Source: Vibrio marisflavi CECT 7928 | GTDB lineage: Bacteria > Pseudomonadota > Gammaproteobacteria > Enterobacterales > Vibrionaceae | Length of the DNA stretch: 64,000 nucleotides | Assembly: GCF_921294215.1 (NCBI RefSeq) | Contig: NZ_CAKLDM010000002.1 | Coordinates: 682,001-746,000, forward strand | Reading direction: 5' to 3' | In this document: one piece after another, positions 7,662-30,542 of the stretch | Numbering within the stretch: position 1 is the first letter of the stretch | Layout of the letters: each line of letters opens with the position of its first letter | The notes under the pieces: generated by a model | Database searches by the model: none | The model's input: the letters and a program-made list of their open reading frames with translations, nothing else | Told to the model about the DNA's origin: nothing | Translations under genes and position numbers: made by a program

Positions 7662-8606
7662 ATGTCTGGAGTATTAAATACTGTTGATCAGCGTACTAAT
7701 CTGGTTGGTGAAAACCGATTAGAGCTATTGCTTTTTAGTCTCAATAGCATGCAGATTTTTGCTATTAACGTATTTAAAGTTAAAGAAGTCATAAAGTTAC
7801 CGCCTCTTACAAAAATGCCAGGCTCCCATCACCATATCACTGGCGTTGCTTCATTGCGTGGCAATCCAGTTCCTGTGATTGATCTAAGAAGTGCGATTGG
7901 CTTTCCTCCATCAAGGTTAGAGAACCAAGAAGAGAACCTGATTATTACTGAATACAACCGATCTGTTCAGGGCTTTTTAGTTGGACAAGTGCGTAATATT
8001 GTTAATACCGCATGGACAGAAATTCAGCCACCACCTAAAACGACGGGACGCTCTAACTATTTGACTGCTATTACTCAAATTAACGAAGACGACAGTGTAC
8101 AGATAGTTGAAATCATTGATGTTGAGAAAGTTTTAGCTGAAATAGTGGATTACGATGTATCCATTTCTGAAGGCGTATTAGATGAAGAACTTTCACACCA
8201 AATGGTGGGCAGAAACGTGTTGATTGTTGATGACTCTTCAACTGCTCGCGCGCAGGTTAAAGGTACGTTGTCACAACTTGGCTTGAATATCATCGAATGC
8301 TGCGACGGGTTAGAAGCGCTAACGCTCTTGAAGTCTTGGTGTGATGAAGGCAAAACCATCACAGACGAACTGCTTTTAATGATCACTGATGCGGAAATGC
8401 CAGAAATGGACGGATATAAACTTACTTACGAGATCCGCAACGATGCACGGATGAAAGATCTACACATTGTGTTGAATACCTCTTTAAGTGGTAGCTTCAA
8501 TGAGGCCATGGTTGAAAAAGTCGGCTGTAACGACTTCATTTCTAAGTTCCAGCCAGACCTTCTGGTTGGTGCTGTTCAAGGTCGCTTGCGTAAACAACTC
8601 TCATAG
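7662..8606 (+). CDS. cheV: chemotaxis coupling protein CheV
   Basis: Couples chemoreceptors to CheA and adapts through phosphorylation. 314 residues: an N-terminal CheW domain (about 15-165) and a C-terminal receiver domain starting at NVLIVDDSS, with the phosphoacceptor Asp243 in MITDAEMPEMDG. The ATG at 7662 is preferred to a GTG at 7650 because MSGVLNTVDQRTNL is the natural CheW-domain lead-in. It is monocistronic and convergent with dnaE2, with only 2 bp between the stop codons and no visible terminator. Confidence 0.94.
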   Translation: MSGVLNTVDQRTNLVGENRLELLLFSLNSMQIFAINVFKVKEVIKLPPLTKMPGSHHHITGVASLRGNPVPVIDLRSAIGFPPSRLENQEENLIITEYNRSVQGFLVGQVRNIVNTAWTEIQPPPKTTGRSNYLTAITQINEDDSVQIVEIIDVEKVLAEIVDYDVSISEGVLDEELSHQMVGRNVLIVDDSSTARAQVKGTLSQLGLNIIECCDGLEALTLLKSWCDEGKTITDELLLMITDAEMPEMDGYKLTYEIRNDARMKDLHIVLNTSLSGSFNEAMVEKVGCNDFISKFQPDLLVGAVQGRLRKQLS

Positions 8607-21058: not shown

Positions 21059-22267
21059 TTAGCAAGGCAGCTTAAGTGTTTGCTTGATTCTTATGCCACT
21101 TGATTTCAACTCATTCAGAGCTTTGATTTCTGAAACCGACGTGTGGAATTTGTTAGCAATGCCAGATAATGTATCGCCAGATTTTACTGTGTAGTCAAAG
21201 CCTGATGGGTAGTTAGATTGGCGTACTTTAAGCACTTCGCCGAGTCTAATCACATTACTCTTCAAGTGGTTGTCGGCTTTTAAGCGATCAACAGACACTG
21301 AATATTTATGAGCAATTTTAAGCAAGCTATCACCAGATTTCACAGTATGCTCTAGCCAGCTGTAGCGTAGGAAGCAGGCGTGAATATGACCTTTTCGGTA
21401 AGCTTCACCTTGTCTGTCGGCAAGCATCTTGGCTTGGTCGGCTGCTTTTTTCTGTGCAGCTTCATGAGCTTTTTCTCTTCTCAGTGCAGCAGCTTGGGCA
21501 GCTTCTTCTCGTCTTTCTTTCTCAATTCTTGCAACTACAAGGCGGTTTACTTCAGCATTGATTTTCTTAGTGCGAGTTTGCAGTGCTTGCTTGAGATCTT
21601 CGATAACTTCATCGTTTGGCACAACTCGGCGAGCTTGCCAATAATCTCTAACCCAATAAGGGTGCTCAAGGCTACTCATTGCAACACCGCGGCTGCTGGT
21701 TGAGCTAATAAATTGGTGATTGCCTAGGTAAATACCAACATGGCGCTCATTAACACCTGTTTTGAAGAAGACTAAGTCACCAACTTGTATGTCATCTTTT
21801 GGTATTTCTCTGCCTAATTTAACTTGTTCCAGAGTTGTTCTTGGTAGGTAGACTCCCAGTGCGCCTATATAAACTTGACGAATAAAGGCAGAACAGTCGA
21901 TGCCTTTTGAGCTATTACCACTATATTCATACGGTGTGCCCGCCCAGTTTTGATAGCTATTGATTAGAGTGATCTTATAGGCCATCTGCTCAGCTGGGGT
22001 TAGGTTTTGAGGCTCGGAGCTTTTCTTTTTTTGATCGGTTTTGACCACTAGTTTCGGGTCATTTTTTGGAGAATCTTTTGTTTCACTCACAACAGAAGCC
22101 TGAGGCGCTTGGGTTGTGTGGTCTGCGACTTGATGTACTGGATGCATTTGGCTGCTCTCGTTCGATTTCGCGGCGTGGGCAGAATCAGAAGAAGTTGGTA
22201 AGCTGGCACAACCCGCAAGCAAAAGTGCAGGTAAAGGCAGCAGCATTGGGTAGCGACAAACAGACAT
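21059..22267 (-). CDS. NlpC/P60 peptidoglycan hydrolase lipoprotein with two LysM domains
   Basis: 402 residues. Lipoprotein signal peptide with lipobox LLLAGC (Cys20), a Ser/Lys/Gln-rich linker (21-90), an NlpC/P60 domain (about 98-215) with catalytic Cys125 in GIDCSAF and His176 in RHVGIYL, a long charged, Ala-rich coiled-coil segment (about 225-290), and two C-terminal LysM repeats beginning HTVKSGDSLLKIA and YTVKSGDTLSGIA. It should cut stem peptides of peptidoglycan while anchored to the outer membrane. Both N-lipidation and C-terminal LysMs suggest it bridges membrane and wall. AGGAG lies about 7 nt before the ATG. Confidence 0.9.
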   Translation of the reverse strand: MSVCRYPMLLPLPALLLAGCASLPTSSDSAHAAKSNESSQMHPVHQVADHTTQAPQASVVSETKDSPKNDPKLVVKTDQKKKSSEPQNLTPAEQMAYKITLINSYQNWAGTPYEYSGNSSKGIDCSAFIRQVYIGALGVYLPRTTLEQVKLGREIPKDDIQVGDLVFFKTGVNERHVGIYLGNHQFISSTSSRGVAMSSLEHPYWVRDYWQARRVVPNDEVIEDLKQALQTRTKKINAEVNRLVVARIEKERREEAAQAAALRREKAHEAAQKKAADQAKMLADRQGEAYRKGHIHACFLRYSWLEHTVKSGDSLLKIAHKYSVSVDRLKADNHLKSNVIRLGEVLKVRQSNYPSGFDYTVKSGDTLSGIANKFHTSVSEIKALNELKSSGIRIKQTLKLPC

Positions 22268-22714
22268 TAAAACTCCTAAATTCAGGAAACGATTAAAAAG
22301 GGGTTCACTAGCTAGTGAAAATTAAAAGTGTGATTTCGTTTCTTGGTTAAAAAATATTATGCAGCATCGTTATCTATGTGTGCGAAAAGAGCGATCTGAC
22401 TCTCTATACAATTGGCTTGCTTGACAAAAAGAGGCTGTTTGGAAGGTTTATCTGGCAACATACGAAAAACAACTATACAACTCGATTAACTAGGCAATAT
22501 CAACGGTATTGCAACATATACAAAAACCTGCATATAAAAATGCAAACTATTTAGATAGCGGATTCTCCTAGAAATTTTTCTGATAATTGTTCGAAAAACG
22601 TCAATTCGTAACAAAAAAATGCTCTAATTGGAGAAATGCGAAATTATACCGTATTGGTTGGCTAAATATCCATTGCAATTTAATGTGAGATTGATGGCAT
22701 AGATAGTGCGTTGA
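22268..22714. other. intergenic region between dgt and the NlpC/P60 gene
   Basis: 447 bp, AT-rich, between two leftward genes. The NlpC-gene promoter must lie in its left half. I see no hairpin with a T run after dgt, no small gene with a ribosome site and no repeat. Confidence 0.5.
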
Positions 22715-24034
22715 TTACACGGGGGAAAATAGTTGGGTGTGCAATCGCAATGCGTGGCCATCGGTCATCGAGGAAATATAATCTGCAATAATCCGATTCT
22801 CAGCGTCGGCGTTCCCAGCCGCTAGTTGCCACTTTTGTTTCTCTAAATTTGGTAGTAATCGGTTTGGCTCAGAGCTCAGTGCTTCGAAAATATTCATAAT
22901 GACCTGCTGACCTTTGTACTCGACAATTTGAACTTCAGGTATCTGGATTACGAAATCGTTGACGAATTTTTTTAGCACATCTAACGCTGCAGCCCTCGAA
23001 GGTGCTAGATAAGCATTGCTACTGAGTAACGGACTTTCAAAACTCTCGGCAGTTGACTGTATGGTAACGCTGGTTAAGAGGGCGTTGACGATTCCTCCTA
23101 TTGCATCTTTGCGCTGGTGATGTTTACCAGAAAATAGCATTTTTCCAAGCGTTACAATGTGCTGGCTGAACCAATCATCGCCAATCTGTTTAAGCTGCGA
23201 TTCAGCTTCGCTACACCACTGCGAATAGCTGACCATACCTAATACAATGGCATCTTCTAAATCGTGAACGCCATAAGCAATATCGTCAGCAAGCTCCATA
23301 ATTGAGCAATCTAAAGATTTGTGTAGGGTTTTATTGTTTTGTTTCCTAGGGCAATTTGTGTCTCTAAGTGCTACAAACTTTTCTTGATCTGACTGTGAGA
23401 GTGGAGATAACACCCAATTAAGTAGTGTATGGTCGCAATCGTAGATGCCTTTCGCTGGCAGCCATTCTTGTGTTTTTAATTTTCTTTGATCGGCTGTGGA
23501 TTTAGGCTTAACTTTCGCCTGTGTCTGGCTAATTAGGGCTGGGTACTTGAGCAAGCCAAGCAAAGAGCGACGGGTGAGGTTCATGCCGCCATTTTCAGTA
23601 TAAGGTTCAAGCTGAGTAACAATTCGGAAAGTTTGAGCATTTCCCTCAAAACCACCATGATCTCGCATCATATAGTTCAAAGCGACTTCTCCACCGTGTC
23701 CGTATGGTGGGTGTCCGATGTCATGTGCTAAGCAAATCGAGTCAATTAGGCTGTCGGAAGGGAGAATTTCACACACTTCTGGTTGTTTAGACTTTATCTG
23801 AGCAACGATGCCAGTTCCAAGTTGAGCCACCTCTAAAGAGTGAGTGAGGCGCGTGCGATGAAAATCATCGGTACTAGAGCAATGCACTTGTGTTTTTGAT
23901 TGCAGGCGTCGAAAAGCCGCTGAGTGGAGAATGCGTGCCCGGTCGCGCTCGAAAGGGCTACGGTGGTCATTTAGACGCAGCTTATTTTCTTGCTTGTTTC
24001 TTTGTCGCCATGCTGAATCAATCGTTTCAGGCAT
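22715..24034 (-). CDS. dgt: deoxyguanosinetriphosphate triphosphohydrolase-like protein (dGTPase)
   Basis: 439-residue HD-domain enzyme that cleaves dNTPs to nucleoside and triphosphate. The N-terminal signature is RSPFERDRARILHSAAFRRL. Metal ligands are His in RTRLTHSLEVAQ, the HD pair in LAHDIGHPPYGHGGE, and a later Asp in MELADDIAYGVHDLED. The start is put at 24034 (MPETIDSAWRQR), 7 nt after AAGGAG; ATG at 24040 would overlap that ribosome site, and a GTG at 24055 lies before it. Vibrio Dgt-type enzymes are commonly annotated as anti-phage dGTPases; whether this one defends is not shown here. Confidence 0.92.
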   Translation of the reverse strand: MPETIDSAWRQRNKQENKLRLNDHRSPFERDRARILHSAAFRRLQSKTQVHCSSTDDFHRTRLTHSLEVAQLGTGIVAQIKSKQPEVCEILPSDSLIDSICLAHDIGHPPYGHGGEVALNYMMRDHGGFEGNAQTFRIVTQLEPYTENGGMNLTRRSLLGLLKYPALISQTQAKVKPKSTADQRKLKTQEWLPAKGIYDCDHTLLNWVLSPLSQSDQEKFVALRDTNCPRKQNNKTLHKSLDCSIMELADDIAYGVHDLEDAIVLGMVSYSQWCSEAESQLKQIGDDWFSQHIVTLGKMLFSGKHHQRKDAIGGIVNALLTSVTIQSTAESFESPLLSSNAYLAPSRAAALDVLKKFVNDFVIQIPEVQIVEYKGQQVIMNIFEALSSEPNRLLPNLEKQKWQLAAGNADAENRIIADYISSMTDGHALRLHTQLFSPV

Positions 24035-24581
24035 TCGCATACTCCTTTCCGCCACAAGAGCTCATATATTGTCGCTGAACCTTTCGTCTCCACTTCTAAT
24101 AGTATGATTCATAAGAGATATGTCAAATAAACCGCAAGCAACAATACCTATGAATATATCAGATGTATGACGAGTGAAATATTTCGGGCCAAAAAGAAGG
24201 TGGCGATATATATGATAACTATTATCTAATTTAATAGATTTTATAGCCAAATAATAATTTTGATACAGCATGAAAAATTGCTATCAAAATAGGTAGATTA
24301 TGTAAATTAAACATTGGTATTTATATATCTCTAGTTCCATTTTTATTGATATTTTTGTAAAGAGTGTTAATTCTAATGGTGATTAAAATCCCACTCGGTT
24401 TGTTCGTTTGTTGTGAATATGTTGTGTTTGAGTGTTTATTGTTGCGCTGGAATTAATCATTGATCGCTTTTTATATTGGTTTGAAGAATTAAATTTTCTA
24501 ATGTTGTTTTAGGGCCGTCAGCATCAATTCCTACTTTAAGTTTTTTTGGAGTTTTAACTACAAAGGAGTGAAATAGTAAAG
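24035..24581. other. AT-rich intergenic region upstream of the secreted-protein pair
   Basis: About 547 bp, strikingly AT-rich, between divergent dgt and the first secreted-protein gene. It holds an inverted repeat ATTTTGATA/TATCAAAAT (24257-24290) and AT-rich promoter-like stretches near 24470-24520. No frame there looks coding. Its composition and length mark the left side of the accessory insert. Confidence 0.55.
24257..24290. repeat. inverted repeat in the leader of the secreted-protein pair
   Basis: ATTTTGATA (24257-24265) and TATCAAAAT (24282-24290) are exact reverse complements separated by 16 nt; an inner GCA/TGC pairing extends the hairpin past a CA bulge. It could end transcription, or be an operator, about 290 bp before the start codon. 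Confidence 0.5.
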
Positions 24582-25793
24582 ATGAAACGACTGATATTCG
24601 GCTTGTGGGCAGCGCTATTTTCGGCCAGCACTTGGGCAGCCAAAGTGGAGATAGATGAGATAAAGCTGCGGCCCGATTATGGGATAGATATTGTCGCTCG
24701 CGTTAATGAAGTGGATAAGAATGACAAAATAGTTGGTGTTGCCTTGAACAAAGTAGAAACATGGACTGTTGACTATACGTTAGGATCTATGATCAGCAGA
24801 GTGGAGAGGTTCAAGGTGGCTGGATACGACGACTACAGTCAATTTCGAAGATCCTGTGATAAATCTGGTGATAGTAAGGACGGCGTTAAAATTAGAGCGT
24901 GCCGAGGTAAAGGCGAGTGGAAAAAGAGAAACAATAGGCTAGATATAAGAATACCAGGTGGCCACTCGCTATTAGGTGGTCAATTCATAAAAGGTAAAAA
25001 TGATCTACAGGCAAATATTGGTGTAGTCGTGACATTAAGCCTTCTAAGGGACAACCCAAAAAAGAAAGTTAGGTTTTTTGGTGAAGTTTTTCAAGCTAGA
25101 CAATTCTATTTTCCAGAAGAATCTTCACCTATTAATACGGATAGCTATTTATTTCCTGGGTATACCCACAACTATAAAACACCTGTTGCTATTACCGTGT
25201 CTAGCGATGGAAAAGTGGGGTGCTTGGCAAAAAGAAAAAATGCCTCTCGCTTCGAGTGTTTGTACAACAAAAAAGATGACAAGCCTGCCCAACAACCAGA
25301 TTACTTTGCGTCTCTAATTTCAAATATAGATGATGACAACCTGAAAATTATGGAGTGCGGGCCTGAATCACAATTCATCGAAAAACAAGGTGTAGTTAAC
25401 TTCCAAGCGAGTGATTTTCAACATGCTGGCCTCACAGGGTATGAGTCCGATTTAAAAGATTATTGGTGCAATAGAATGAACAACTACATTCGTAAGGATG
25501 AAGATGTTTCTAGCATTTATGGCGAAGGGTGGCTTTTAAGTGTCAATCCATTCACAGGAAAAATGGAGTGCTTTTCGGGCAAGTGGAACTGGTGCTTAAA
25601 TAGCAGCTATGCGAATGAAAAGCCGAAGATTACATCTCACAGAGAAAATAAAACAGTTGATCAATATACCCGATACAAACCCATTCATGGCTGCAGATAT
25701 AAAAATGGTCTGGTTCGGCCTTGTCCGGAAAGTATGAAAAATATCCAATCACTCGCGCAATTAATCGAATCAGTTAATGGAGAGGCATTATGA
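24582..25793 (+). CDS. secreted Cys-rich protein of unknown function
   Basis: 403 residues with a clear signal peptide (MKRLIFGLWAALFSASTWAA, cut after AWA or AAK). The mature part is soluble and contains ten cysteines, eight of them in the last 200 residues in short contexts such as MECGP, YWCNRM, MECFSG, NWCLNS and HGCRYK, suggesting a disulfide-stabilised periplasmic or extracellular protein. No domain recognised. The nearest ribosome site, AAAGGAG, is 13-14 nt from the ATG, unusually far. ATA and AGA codons are frequent compared with neighbours. The stop overlaps the next ATG (ATGA), so both products are probably made together. Confidence 0.82.
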   Translation: MKRLIFGLWAALFSASTWAAKVEIDEIKLRPDYGIDIVARVNEVDKNDKIVGVALNKVETWTVDYTLGSMISRVERFKVAGYDDYSQFRRSCDKSGDSKDGVKIRACRGKGEWKKRNNRLDIRIPGGHSLLGGQFIKGKNDLQANIGVVVTLSLLRDNPKKKVRFFGEVFQARQFYFPEESSPINTDSYLFPGYTHNYKTPVAITVSSDGKVGCLAKRKNASRFECLYNKKDDKPAQQPDYFASLISNIDDDNLKIMECGPESQFIEKQGVVNFQASDFQHAGLTGYESDLKDYWCNRMNNYIRKDEDVSSIYGEGWLLSVNPFTGKMECFSGKWNWCLNSSYANEKPKITSHRENKTVDQYTRYKPIHGCRYKNGLVRPCPESMKNIQSLAQLIESVNGEAL

Positions 25794-28504
25794 GAAATGT
25801 TCGTATTTTTATAATTTGTCTCTTGCTATCCCTTTGCTCTACTAATGCAACCGCAAAACCCTTATTCGAGAAGTGGGCTAATAAAGTGGGTAAGCATCTA
25901 GGAGTTGACCATACAATTGAATGGGGGGAGGGTGTTGTTGATGACATATCGAACTGGAATGCTGGCAAAAGTGCGGATCAAGCTGGTAATCGTATTAAGA
26001 ATGGCTGGGAGCAGGAAGTTGAACAGAATTTTGCTCGTTGGATAGTCAATGCTCCTGAGCTAGTAGGTGACCGTATTGTTGATGAAATATACGAGACAAC
26101 CGGTGTAGATATCACAAAAATTGATAAGGAATTGTATGAAAAATATAAGTCTATTAACTTCAAAGCAATAGAAAATGCACTTTTAGACGCCCCGGAGCAA
26201 TTTGCAGACGCTTTGTTAGAAGTCCTAGATGCGTTACGAGTATGTGCTCTCGTGACTGGAAATATGGATAACGACTCAATGAAAGATTGCCTTGAAGAAG
26301 CGTATAACTCAATTATGGGAATATATGCTCAAGCTGAATTTATAATGTTTACGATGAATATGTTTAACTCGATGATGAAGGATAAGAAGAATAATACAAA
26401 TAATACAAATAATACAAATAATACAAATAATACAAATAGTATATATGGCTATAGTTCATATGATGATAGTGCAAATAGCTCATATGGCTATAGCTCATAT
26501 GGTGAAAGTGCAAATAGTACAAATGGGGGCAGTACAACTAGTACCTATAGCAATAGTACGGCGACTTCGGTATTAGGAGGCATGAATTTCAACGCTACGC
26601 GCGATGTTCTGAAGGCAACAAGACAGGCAGATTTAGACTTAAACTTTGATGACAGCGAAACAGAGTTTAAAGCCTTGTCACAGTTTAGCTCTATTGATGA
26701 TATTCGGTTGTCTGAATTGGTGAATAACAATATCTCAGATACGTACAATTTAGATTATGTAAAGAATAAATATGGCTCATGCCGACAAGTGAATTTGGCA
26801 CATGTTTGTTACGACCAAAAAGTTTGGAAAGGTAAGTATCTTGAGAAGTTTAATTATAAAAGGGCGGGGTTAACCGAAGAATGGAAGCAAATTAGAAAGG
26901 CTCGCTTGGTTTCACTGGTAGAGCATGCTTTTGGCAATGCCTATAACATTGTCGGTCAAAAAGAGGTAACGAAAGACGAGATGATTTCAGTGATCTATGA
27001 GCTGATCTTTTCATCTGAATATGCCGATAAAAGAGATCCTTACCTTGTGCCTTCTTCAATACTAGAAGGGCATCCAGCCACGTTTTTATACACCAATGAC
27101 GATAGTATTATTTTGATGAATCAAGACTCGTTCTATTCTATAGATGACTCAGATCAAGCTCGCCGAGACACGCGTTTGTTTGCAAATGAACTCTATTTTG
27201 AAGAACTGGGTCATTTTGTGGAGAAATGGCGCTGCATCAAATTGAATGTTTCTGTGTCCAATTGCGATACCTATGGTGATGCTGGGGCTCGTTTTTCAGA
27301 TGCAGCCCTAATAAATAGTCCAGAGTTGGTAAATGATATTGAAGTATACGATGAAGCCATTGCCAAACTATCAAAAAATGATATGACGTATTCTTCACAC
27401 TTAACGATGAAAAGCGGAGAAAAAGTATACTATGAAACGGCGCCTTCAGAGGCTGCTATTCAGGCAGCACTTAACAAAAAGGGATGGACGCTCAGGTACC
27501 GCTTACGCGGACAAATAGGTTGGGAGCTCAATAATGAATCTGCATTAGCAGGTGGGAACTCAGCCGTGGGAATAGGTAGCAACATAGTATTGGAGTTTCG
27601 TTATACCCCAGCAAGAAGAGTCAAGAATGGTTGGTCTAGCTACTACAATACTCCTTGCCCGAATGGCAATTGCAATATCGATGTTGGAAAAGCCCAGATT
27701 AAGATAGCCTCAGAATCATTTATGGGTTCTGGTGAAGGCGATTCTACTGCAAGCATGTATGGTGAAGTAGGCATTGACAGGGCATACTCTGTGAGTTTTC
27801 CTCTTGTTCGTAAAAGTATAGGGCAAGAATTACCTGACTCTGAACTTGGATATTCCCCACAGATTTATGCCACCCACTTTAATTTCGACCACAATATAAT
27901 GCGTAAAGAAGCTAGGTTTGGTCACGACGCCGGAGGCTATTCATTTATTACATATGATCAAAAGAATGCCAAACTTCCGTTTGCTCGAGTTAAGTCAAAC
28001 TTTAACAACGTTGTCCATGTGATGTGGGGTGGCACCTCCATAAGCTGGCCGATGAGTAGTAAGAAAATTATGCCAGCCTTCCTTGCTGGTGCTTCTCTTG
28101 GCGTTGTAGGTTGCGCGATAGGTGTAAAGGCTGGTGGCCTAATGCAAGAGCGAATGACTGGATGTGATACAGGTTCTTCAATCGGTGAAAGGTTGGGGAT
28201 ACAAGGAGCGGGAATGCTAATGGGAAAAACAATCTATGCGGATGCAGGTCATATAATTTCAGTGCGTACTCAACATCGAAATGCATCAAACACTTTTATT
28301 ACTAAAAATAATCCTACTAAATTATGGAATGATGGCTCAAGAAATGGTCGTGTTGAGCTTAGAATTGAGTTTGTTAAAGTCATGGAAGAGGAAAAAATAA
28401 AGTTTCCTAATAAGCAAATTGAGAAATGGTTGAAAAATGTTTCTCAAGAGGTTTTTGCGTGGTTAGATACTAGAAAGTGGCACAAAGCTATATTTAGTTT
28501 CTAA
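25790..28504 (+). CDS. large secreted protein of unknown function with NNT repeat and EELGH motif
   Basis: 904 residues. Signal peptide (1-22, ending SLCSTNATA); a helical N-terminal region (about 24-195); a low-complexity linker of five NNT units then Ser/Tyr/Gly-rich SSYG.SAN-like repeats (about 200-263); a mixed region with ELYFEELGHFVEKW (about 466-479; E471, E472, H475) and CDTYGDAGARFS (492-503); a beta-rich region; and a Gly-rich hydrophobic stretch, MPAFLAGASLGVVGCAIG (about 761-778). I do not recognise the whole. The EELGH plus DxxGDxGAxFS pair resembles a pattern I recall from cyanobacterial secreted proteins (EEIGH..., GDEGAIFS). It starts inside the preceding gene's stop, after GGAGAGG. 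A strong terminator follows. Confidence 0.85.
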   Translation: MRNVRIFIICLLLSLCSTNATAKPLFEKWANKVGKHLGVDHTIEWGEGVVDDISNWNAGKSADQAGNRIKNGWEQEVEQNFARWIVNAPELVGDRIVDEIYETTGVDITKIDKELYEKYKSINFKAIENALLDAPEQFADALLEVLDALRVCALVTGNMDNDSMKDCLEEAYNSIMGIYAQAEFIMFTMNMFNSMMKDKKNNTNNTNNTNNTNNTNSIYGYSSYDDSANSSYGYSSYGESANSTNGGSTTSTYSNSTATSVLGGMNFNATRDVLKATRQADLDLNFDDSETEFKALSQFSSIDDIRLSELVNNNISDTYNLDYVKNKYGSCRQVNLAHVCYDQKVWKGKYLEKFNYKRAGLTEEWKQIRKARLVSLVEHAFGNAYNIVGQKEVTKDEMISVIYELIFSSEYADKRDPYLVPSSILEGHPATFLYTNDDSIILMNQDSFYSIDDSDQARRDTRLFANELYFEELGHFVEKWRCIKLNVSVSNCDTYGDAGARFSDAALINSPELVNDIEVYDEAIAKLSKNDMTYSSHLTMKSGEKVYYETAPSEAAIQAALNKKGWTLRYRLRGQIGWELNNESALAGGNSAVGIGSNIVLEFRYTPARRVKNGWSSYYNTPCPNGNCNIDVGKAQIKIASESFMGSGEGDSTASMYGEVGIDRAYSVSFPLVRKSIGQELPDSELGYSPQIYATHFNFDHNIMRKEARFGHDAGGYSFITYDQKNAKLPFARVKSNFNNVVHVMWGGTSISWPMSSKKIMPAFLAGASLGVVGCAIGVKAGGLMQERMTGCDTGSSIGERLGIQGAGMLMGKTIYADAGHIISVRTQHRNASNTFITKNNPTKLWNDGSRNGRVELRIEFVKVMEEEKIKFPNKQIEKWLKNVSQEVFAWLDTRKWHKAIFSF
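26390..26434 (+). repeat. 9-bp tandem repeat, five perfect copies
   Basis: AATAATACA is repeated five times without error and encodes Asn-Asn-Thr five times in the linker of the large secreted protein. Because the unit is a multiple of three, copy-number changes would alter linker length without breaking the frame. Confidence 0.95.
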
Positions 28505-28526
28505 ATTCCAACTTTCAGTTAACTGC

Positions 28527-28561
28527 AAAGCTCCCTATAAGGTATATATGGGAGCTTTTTT
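28527..28561 (+). terminator. rho-independent terminator of the secreted-protein operon
   Basis: AAAGCTCCC (28527-28535) pairs with GGGAGCTTT (28550-28558), followed by a run of T to 28561. It lies 22 nt after the stop codon and separates the pair from yfbR. Confidence 0.88.
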
Positions 28562-28656
28562 GATGTTGTAAGATAGCATTTGTGGGTGTATACAAGCAGC
28601 ATATGTTTGAGGATGTTTTACCGTACTCATTTTATTAATATTGCGGAGTAGGATGA

Positions 28657-29262
28657 ATGAAAAAAAACCAAAGTGTTTTCATGGCTTGGATAACAAGGAT
28701 GCCCCTCATCAAGCGCTGGGCATTGATGCATTGTTTCCAAGAAGAGAATGTGTCTGAGCACTGTCACCAAGTTTCTGTTATTGCTCACCTTCTTACCGTG
28801 ATAAGAAATAAGCGCTTCAACGGCAAGCTCAGCCCAGAGAGGGCTGCGACCATTGCCATTTATCACGAGATATCAGAAACGAAACTGCAAGACATTAATT
28901 CTAAAACTAAATATCACAACCCAGAATTTACCGCAGCGTTTAAAAAGTTGGAGAACCTAGCGGAAATTGAATGCCTTGAAACCTTGCCGGAAGACTTAAG
29001 AGAGGAGTTTACTGACATTCTCATTCAAGAAAATGTGGATGAAGAATATAAAGCCATCGTGAAAGCGGCAGACATCTTAGCAGCCTACATCAAAACGATG
29101 AATGAGCTAAGGTTCAACAATGATGAGTTTCGTCATGTCAAAGACGGTTTGGATGAAAGGATTGAATCGCTTGCTAAGCAAATGCCAGAAGTGCAAGTCT
29201 TTATGGATGTATTCTGCGATAGCTGTACAACGACGCTAGATAAGATCTCATCAACAAATTAG
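28657..29262 (+). CDS. yfbR: YfbR-like HD-domain phosphohydrolase (5'-nucleotidase-like) with altered HD motif
   Basis: 201 residues, aligning along its length with E. coli YfbR (199), a metal-dependent 5'-deoxyribonucleotidase. The substrate/metal segment ENVSEHCHQV and the late Asp in VKAADILAAY are present. The central motif, however, reads AIYHEISET where E. coli has a YHDASE sequence: the Asp of the eponymous HD pair is Glu here, and the TGDLPTPVKY segment is LQDINSKTKY. Activity or metal preference may therefore differ. The ATG has GGAG about 10 nt upstream. Convergent with alaA, with a hairpin between. Confidence 0.88.
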   Translation: MKKNQSVFMAWITRMPLIKRWALMHCFQEENVSEHCHQVSVIAHLLTVIRNKRFNGKLSPERAATIAIYHEISETKLQDINSKTKYHNPEFTAAFKKLENLAEIECLETLPEDLREEFTDILIQENVDEEYKAIVKAADILAAYIKTMNELRFNNDEFRHVKDGLDERIESLAKQMPEVQVFMDVFCDSCTTTLDKISSTN

Positions 29263-29277
29263 CCATCTGAAACTGGA

Positions 29278-29301
29278 AAGGGCTTAATGCTTTAAGCCCT
29301 T
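29278..29301. terminator. bidirectional hairpin between yfbR and alaA
   Basis: AAGGGCTTAA (29278-29287) and TTAAGCCCTT (29292-29301) form a perfect 10-bp stem with a TGCT tetraloop between two convergent stop codons. Confidence 0.7.
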
Positions 29302-29327
29302 AGCACAGTGCCAATTGGATTAAGTGG

Positions 29328-30542
29328 CTATTGACGATACGTAGACAAAAACTGACCGAAACGCCCAATCGCCGTTTCTAAATCTTCCACATGAGGCAAA
29401 GTGACAATACGGAAGTGATCCGGCTTAGGCCAGTTGAATCCAGTGCCTTGAACCAGTAGGACTTTCTCTTGGATTAGAAAGTCGAGCACTAACTTCTGAT
29501 CGTCTTTTATGTTGTACATTTTGGTATCAATTTTGGGAAATAAATACATCGCCCCTTTCGGCTTAATACAAGAAATCCCAGGAATGTCATTGATAAGTTC
29601 CCATGCCCGATCACGCTGCTCAAGAAGGCGCCCACCCGGCAGAATCAACTCGTTAATGCTCTGATAACCGCCAAGAGCTGTTTGGATTGCATGCTGCATT
29701 GGAACATTTGCGCATAAACGCATGGAAGCAAGCATTTCTAAACCATCGATGTACGCTTTCGCTAGGTGTTTGGGACCTGTTAAAAACATCCAACCACTTC
29801 TGAAGCCACATACTCGGTATGCTTTTGACAAGCCATTAAACGTCATGACTAAAACATCGTCCGCCAAAGTGGCAACTGATGTATGTGTTGCGCCATCAAA
29901 CAGAACCTTGTCATAAATCTCGTCAGCAAAAATAATTAACTTGTGCTGGCGAGCTATCTCAACCACCTCAAGTAGAAAATCGCGACTGTATACAGCACCT
30001 GTTGGGTTGTTGGGGTTGATCAGCACAATCCCACGAGTTTTCTTGGTGATTTTCTTCTTAATATCATCAAGATCTGGATACCAATCTGCTTCTTCATCAC
30101 AGAGGTAATGAACTGCATTTCCGCCAGATAGAGACACAGACGCGGTCCAAAGAGGATAATCAGGAGCTGGTACAAGCATTTCGTCGCCATCGTTAAGCAA
30201 CGCTTGCATCGCCATGACAATCAACTCAGAAACGCCATTGCCGATAAAGACATCTTCAACATCGAGGCTTCTTAAGCCCTTCTTTTGATAGTGCTGAACA
30301 ACGGCTTTTCTTGCCGAGTAAATACCTTTGGAGTCGCAGTAACCTTGAGAGGTTGGAAGGTTACGAATTACGTCTACTAGAATTTCATCGGGGGCGTCAA
30401 AACCAAATGGGGCCGGATTACCAATGTTGAGCTTTAGAATTTTATGTCCTTCTTCTTCCATTCGCTTAGCATGTTTGAGTACCGGACCGCGTATGTCATA
30501 GCATACGTTATCGAGTTTGGAAGACATCCCGATATTTTGCAT
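29328..30542 (-). CDS. alaA: glutamate-pyruvate (alanine) aminotransferase AlaA
   Basis: PLP-dependent class I/II aminotransferase making alanine from pyruvate and glutamate. 404 residues, nearly the length of E. coli AlaA/YfbQ (405). Visible landmarks are YDIRGPVLKHA at the start, NPNNPTGAVY, FADEIYDKV, and the PLP-binding lysine in NGLSKAYRVCGFRSGW (near residue 240). The yfbR/alaA neighbourhood is retained in E. coli. It is divergent from menF across 245 bp. Confidence 0.95.
   Translation of the reverse strand: MQNIGMSSKLDNVCYDIRGPVLKHAKRMEEEGHKILKLNIGNPAPFGFDAPDEILVDVIRNLPTSQGYCDSKGIYSARKAVVQHYQKKGLRSLDVEDVFIGNGVSELIVMAMQALLNDGDEMLVPAPDYPLWTASVSLSGGNAVHYLCDEEADWYPDLDDIKKKITKKTRGIVLINPNNPTGAVYSRDFLLEVVEIARQHKLIIFADEIYDKVLFDGATHTSVATLADDVLVMTFNGLSKAYRVCGFRSGWMFLTGPKHLAKAYIDGLEMLASMRLCANVPMQHAIQTALGGYQSINELILPGGRLLEQRDRAWELINDIPGISCIKPKGAMYLFPKIDTKMYNIKDDQKLVLDFLIQEKVLLVQGTGFNWPKPDHFRIVTLPHVEDLETAIGRFGQFLSTYRQ

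Follow-up and report, generated by a model that had tools for sequence, protein, structure and literature searches.

Profile comparisons indicate that two overlapping genes, gene 1 (24582..25793) and gene 2 (25790..28504), both on the forward strand, are a split, extremely diverged version of a family of large secreted proteins whose relatives are encoded by one gene each. The window, i.e., the whole stretch of DNA that was analysed, comprises 64,000 nt of Vibrio marisflavi CECT 7928 (NZ_CAKLDM010000002.1, positions 682,001 to 746,000, forward strand). A puzzling two-gene insert is now tied to a wider family of such proteins, and the pair gives access to this family, in which sugar binding is frequent and a toxin-like nature possible, and to its unusual motif resembling a metal site.

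Both genes run in the same direction and share an ATGA overlap at 25790-25793. Gene 1 encodes an apparently exported protein of 403 aa, proposed here as the binding or targeting subunit, with exactly 10 Cys, every one downstream of the leader; gene 2 encodes the proposed effector subunit, a likewise exported protein of 904 aa with 12 Cys, two of them inside the leader. The leader peptides (gene 1: aa 1-20, 24582..24641; gene 2: aa 1-22, 25790..25855; both forward strand) were called by eye from the translations for their typical Sec leader look, without a signal-peptide predictor, and hydropathy peaks at aa 4-22 in both proteins. In gene 1 this N-terminal stretch is the sole strongly hydrophobic one and would fit a cleavable leader as well as an uncleaved anchor. 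An A+T-rich region lies upstream of gene 1, between dgt and gene 1 (24056..24581, forward strand, 526 bp; 29% G+C vs. 42% for the window), and a terminator-like hairpin followed by a T run lies downstream of gene 2 (28527..28558, forward strand, −15.3 kcal/mol, z −2.9; equalled by 2 of 200 shuffles). An earlier note, made from the sequence alone, had proposed the two open reading frames with their ATGA overlap, signal peptides on both products, an AT-rich leader, a terminator and a secreted partner with 10 Cys, and all of these were recovered at the positions given above. The hairpin is absent from the listing of the stock terminator scan. Promoter-like sites show no excess in 24050-28700 (9 vs. 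14.9 in shuffles), and an Rfam scan of 22000-30000 gave no match.

Regarding composition, both genes had been described as AT-rich with frequent ATA and AGA codons, which holds in part, the composition being shifted, not strongly. The G+C content is 0.407 for gene 1 (z −1.7) and 0.394 for gene 2 (z −2.4), as compared to a mean of 0.435 (sd 0.017) for the 41 other window genes, two of which are lower than gene 1 and one lower than gene 2. The ATA share is raised to a similar degree in both (z 1.7 and 1.9, respectively), whereas the AGA/AGG share of Arg codons stands out in gene 1 (z 2.9) but not in gene 2 (z 0.8).

Homology to a family of one-gene secreted proteins

Neither gene gave an above-cut-off match in Pfam, NCBIfam or PHROGs, gene 1 remaining without a family at E ≤ 1. 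The earlier view that neither product belongs to a known family therefore stands for these three collections, but not beyond them, as both genes match parts of one large secreted family. A protein search with gene 1 returned only gene 1 itself and P0003, a near-identical partial copy of 236 aa which continues into another frame; by sequence, the best match of gene 1 in the PDB has an E-value of 0.21. The search with gene 2 was probably weakened by its Asn-Thr repeat and yielded at least one relative (P0001). Starting from the relative of V. thalassae (P0004), at least 34 proteins of 845 to 1,738 aa were found, at least two of them partial, including members from Vibrio, Shewanella, Veronia and Rathayibacter; genome contigs added members from Algicola and an uncultured gammaproteobacterium. 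These relatives are large secreted proteins encoded by a single gene, some with lectin or StcE-type domains, and are annotated as "beta-prism lectin domain-containing protein" or "Metalloprotease StcE beta-sandwich domain-containing protein". V. lentus WP_192854036.1 and V. crassostreae WP_162200895.1 belong to the family, two named members of which are located on conjugative plasmids of these species, and the relative of V. sagamiensis adjoins an RHS-repeat gene. Weak matches of window proteins to NCBIfam TrbJ (E 0.035) and PHROG 646 (E 0.093) were disregarded.

A profile of 35 relatives (the 34 proteins and the Algicola protein, with the window genes left out) was searched against gene 1, gene 2, 400 shuffles of both and the open frames of the window of at least 100 aa. 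It matched gene 2 at aa 368-565 (26891..27484, forward strand) with an E-value of 1.3e-35 and gene 1 at aa 243-361 (25308..25664, forward strand) with 1.3e-7, while the best of the 400 shuffles reached 0.035 and the best unrelated window frame 6.3. In the one-gene relatives, the counterpart of the gene 1 segment is an N-terminal domain that contains Cys, and C259, C330 and C338 of gene 1 are invariant in 19 rows. In a search of the whole genome with a profile that included gene 2 but left out gene 1, gene 1 was found at positions 78-176 (E 6.2e-4) with gene 2 (positions 317-1195) just downstream, matching the order in the relatives; this search detected no second copy in the genome. The sequence profiles thus show homology of the C-terminal part of gene 1 to the N-terminal Cys domain of the relatives and of the gene 2 core to their conserved core, with the order retained.

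The Cys domain, the core and the export leader are shared between the pair and the family, whose members are one polypeptide, whereas here two overlapping frames each carry a leader. Unlike these relatives, the pair has no StcE sandwich, beta-prism or PAN domain recognised by Pfam, and at E ≤ 1 neither the StcE-type sandwich PF20944 nor the beta-prism domain PF16458 is found in gene 1 or gene 2. The gene 2 core is 28-37% identical to those of seven relatives. Its branch in the core tree amounts to 6.6 changes per column, as compared to 1.29 on the branch leading to the four Rathayibacter proteins, a length at which, as the tree program warns, placement is unsure. The core has no family model in Pfam, NCBIfam or PHROGs, and no description of the family was found in the open-licence papers searched.

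The gene 2 chain and its EELGH core

Downstream of the leader, a low-confidence model predicts an all-helical region at aa 23-207 (25856..26410, forward strand), followed by a low-complexity linker of in-frame repeats (26382..26530, forward strand) built from 9-bp units encoding Asn-Asn-Thr and two 39-bp units. Between leader and core, the match to the profile of the relatives amounts to 3.8 bits, a score which 8 of 1000 shuffles equalled. The core itself is modelled with pLDDT values of mostly 60-88 and features two motifs on the forward strand, namely EELGH at aa 471-475 (27200..27214), invariant in 36 rows, and GDAGARFSDA at aa 496-505 (27275..27304), of which the D, GARF and DA are invariant, so that EELGH and DxGARFxDA are kept in 36 of 36 rows. 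The most conserved core residues are polar (E, E, H, R, D, R and D).

These motifs may recall the zincin metallopeptidases (Peptidase_M78 and M56). A strand-then-helix register would place EELGH, with weak support, on the zincin HExxH/HELGH; the difference is that Glu takes the place of the first His (EExxH) in 36 of 36 rows and that HExxH with both His is absent. A weak fold match to BlaR1 was obtained as well. Comparison of the core with M48/M56 profiles was no better than the control; the M48/M56 profile was built from 26 of 30 loci and the M78 profile from 12 of 29, i.e., those with the HExxH pattern. Pfam holds no peptidase or glycosidase model that matches the core. The glycoproteases StcE and CpaA, which we take to be M66 and M72 peptidases, have HExxH where the pair has EELGH, and no similarity of the core to their protease domains appeared among the matches listed. 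The EExGH pattern presumably resembles that of secreted cyanobacterial proteins. The invariant EELGH/DxGARF site leads to a precise, testable prediction on metal binding.

Towards its C-terminus, gene 2 is predicted to form six long strands (aa 572-755, 27503..28054, forward strand; low-confidence model) and a helical hairpin (aa 758-811, 28061..28222, forward strand), the first arm of which is Gly-rich and hydrophobic according to model and hydropathy. The order of elements in a better model of a relative matches that of the strand region, and aa 762-859 match the profile of the relatives with 9.6 bits, above the best of 1000 shuffles (6.7 bits; 0 of 1000 as high), which lends modest support to homology of the C-terminal strands and hairpin. 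By Foldseek, the gene 2 model had no PDB match at E ≤ 0.001, and neither did the model of a relative in the viral fold library.

Proposed function and competing explanations

Tentatively, and with somewhat less than even confidence, we favour a two-subunit version of the large secreted family, in which gene 1 would provide a surface binder and gene 2 a zincin-like effector with a possibly membrane-active tail. Both proteins would be exported by Sec and then probably leave the cell through the type II secretion system; the genome features a secretin frame of 674 aa, which we take to be the size of EpsD. Gene 1 would stand in for the N-terminal binding part of the relatives (Cys domain, beta-prism lectin, StcE-type sandwich or PAN) and tether the complex to a glycan or a cell surface. 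The products probably bind each other, because the same parts form one chain in the relatives. Gene 2 would then act as effector: its core, with a putative zincin-like fold, EExxH and a downstream Asp, and Glu for the first metal-binding His, could cleave or bind something on the target, while the C-terminal strands and the hydrophobic hairpin may act at a membrane. If the products do bind, the natural split offers a simple handle, since each of the two parts, binding and active, could be produced and tested on its own.

The combination of variable binding domains with a constant module that carries an enzyme-like site as well as a membrane-like tail suggests a delivered effector. The toxin/partner reading put forward earlier is a fair guess. 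A bolder form of it, which we regard as unlikely, would be a two-component secreted toxin with a binding and an active part, the latter belonging to a zincin-like class of its own, marked by a metal site of the form EExxH...D. It would be split in a marine Vibrio, form a single giant protein whose binding domains can be exchanged in marine bacteria other than Vibrio as well as in Rathayibacter, and have been transferred en bloc along with its own yfbR allele.

Other readings draw on the same features. An extracellular feeding enzyme in the manner of StcE and CpaA, which digests algal or animal glycoproteins or polysaccharides and poisons nothing, would fit the StcE-type sandwich, which the family alignment shows in 20 of 36 rows, the metallophore genes adjoining two relatives and the type II secretion of these two glycoproteases (PMC7542363). 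It appears possible but rather unlikely, given that the core lacks HExxH and any match to a peptidase or glycosidase model, that an EELGH site would be unusual in a protease, and that a hydrophobic hairpin and long strands, as predicted here, are unexpected in a plain exoenzyme. The absence of the first zincin His in 36 of 36 rows could alternatively point to a pseudo-enzyme, i.e., an adhesin or matrix protein with a dead structural core like RbmC/Bap1 of the V. cholerae biofilm matrix, and beta-prism and StcE-like domains also build RbmC (PMC3161981). The polar nature of the most conserved residues, however, is nearer to an active or metal site than to a scaffold and gene 2 itself has no lectin domain, which makes this explanation improbable.

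Adjacent genes also raise the option that gene 1 is a dedicated secretion chaperone of gene 2, as CpaB, which is encoded beside CpaA and required for CpaA stability and secretion (PMC7542363). The single strongly hydrophobic stretch of gene 1, N-terminal as it is, could serve as an uncleaved anchor for such a role, but by eye the leader looks cleavable. Furthermore, gene 1 shows homology, over part of its length, to a domain which in the relatives sits on one chain with the core, and gene 1 would therefore rather be a piece of the secreted product; a chaperone is possible, yet quite improbable and not favoured. Finally, the very long gene 2 branch and the continuation of P0003 into another frame might reflect a decaying locus, in which an old family member was broken in two and is drifting. 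With both window frames intact, including their starts, the ATGA overlap and the terminator, and with gene 2 retaining the invariant residues and featuring its own leader, we consider decay very improbable. The two-subunit reading remains the one that we prefer.

Distribution and the yfbR block

In the family Vibrionaceae, gene 2 matched 4 of 246 other genomes, each time as the core of a larger frame. With the profile, 13 of 227 genomes of the genus matched, six of them in the sandwich part only; after removal of the latter, the genome of the window and six others were left. Two of 368 other genomes of the class matched, one with a broken remnant, and none of 397 others of the phylum had a clear core, the single match below 1e-3 being situated in a stretch with six stops. 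The genome sets of these searches overlap and the counts are not additive; none of them contained another split pair. In line with the cargo reading of the earlier note, the unit is atypical for its site, and the pair was absent from the other genomes searched. No relative was found in viral contigs, no phage record contained gene 2, and a plasmid search gave no match to gene 1. The nearest published two-gene analogue that we found, by description only, is R5.7/R5.8, which is reported to be restricted to the Vibrio Splendidus clade and of which R5.7 contributes to oyster mortality (PMC6246604). In contrast, gene 1 matched 0 of 246 other genomes of the family, and gene 2 matched only one-gene relatives there.

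Directly downstream, at 28657..29262 on the forward strand and in the same direction as both genes, lies a rare allele of yfbR (Pfam match, identity and locus comparison). Its product is 58-83% identical to those of four genomes and 37-47% identical to the best matches in 43 others, among 47 other yfbR-bearing genomes, as compared to 85-95% identity for alaA among loci of the genus. In this gene neighbourhood, alaA adjoins yfbR on the same strand in 29 of 29 other fetched loci, and dgt follows yfbR at 23-279 bp, again on the same strand, in 22 of 29, in agreement with the earlier note, which places the three side by side in vibrios; two other loci (L081 and L082) carry different genes between yfbR and dgt. 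In the window, yfbR and the two genes point the other way from both dgt and alaA, and yfbR and gene 1 have the top two AGA/AGG shares among 43 genes. Because of its rare allele, its strand opposite to alaA and dgt and its high AGA/AGG share, yfbR likely lies inside the changed block, and it is more likely that a foreign or rearranged block runs from gene 1 through yfbR. The idea of cargo inserted between dgt and yfbR is supported by the direct adjacency of these genes in the 22 loci, but its boundary shifts to include yfbR itself. No long inverted repeats flank the block. At the dgt-alaA junction, the Vibrio chromosome seems to have undergone exchange of a housekeeping gene.

A rare yfbR allele beside the gene pair

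Based on identity and locus comparison, the yfbR gene of the window (28657-29262) represents a rare allele, as its identity reached at least 58% to only four of the 47 other yfbR-bearing genomes and lay between 37 and 47% for the remaining ones. It is furthermore encoded on the strand opposite to alaA, in contrast to all of the 29 other loci.

Repeats in gene 2 and a second record of gene 1

Within gene 2, in-frame tandem repeats with 9-bp and 39-bp units (26382-26530) encode a low-complexity linker, whose length could vary from strain to strain. For gene 1, a second, near-identical record exists (P0003, 236 aa; compared against 24582-25317), whose reading continues into another frame.

Neighborhood, domains and distribution of the one-gene relatives

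The one-gene relatives in Vibrio lentus plasmid p1 and V. qingdaonensis adjoin a metallophore cluster (loci L011, 1-4588, and L015, 50-5081), comprising synthesis of an opine (staphylopine-type) metallophore and ABC transport. In a further relative of about 1,740 aa (P0032, locus L018), the lectin or sandwich domains are replaced by PAN domains. Far removed from the marine gammaproteobacteria, relatives were also found in the Gram-positive genus Rathayibacter, where the protein search listed four matches (P0033-P0036) with 34-36% identity across 98-100% of the 621-aa query region. Moreover, a small gammaproteobacterial genome of 1.4 Mb (G355) harbors a broken remnant of a one-gene relative with internal stops (locus L040, about 7772-8462; E 3.4e-94).
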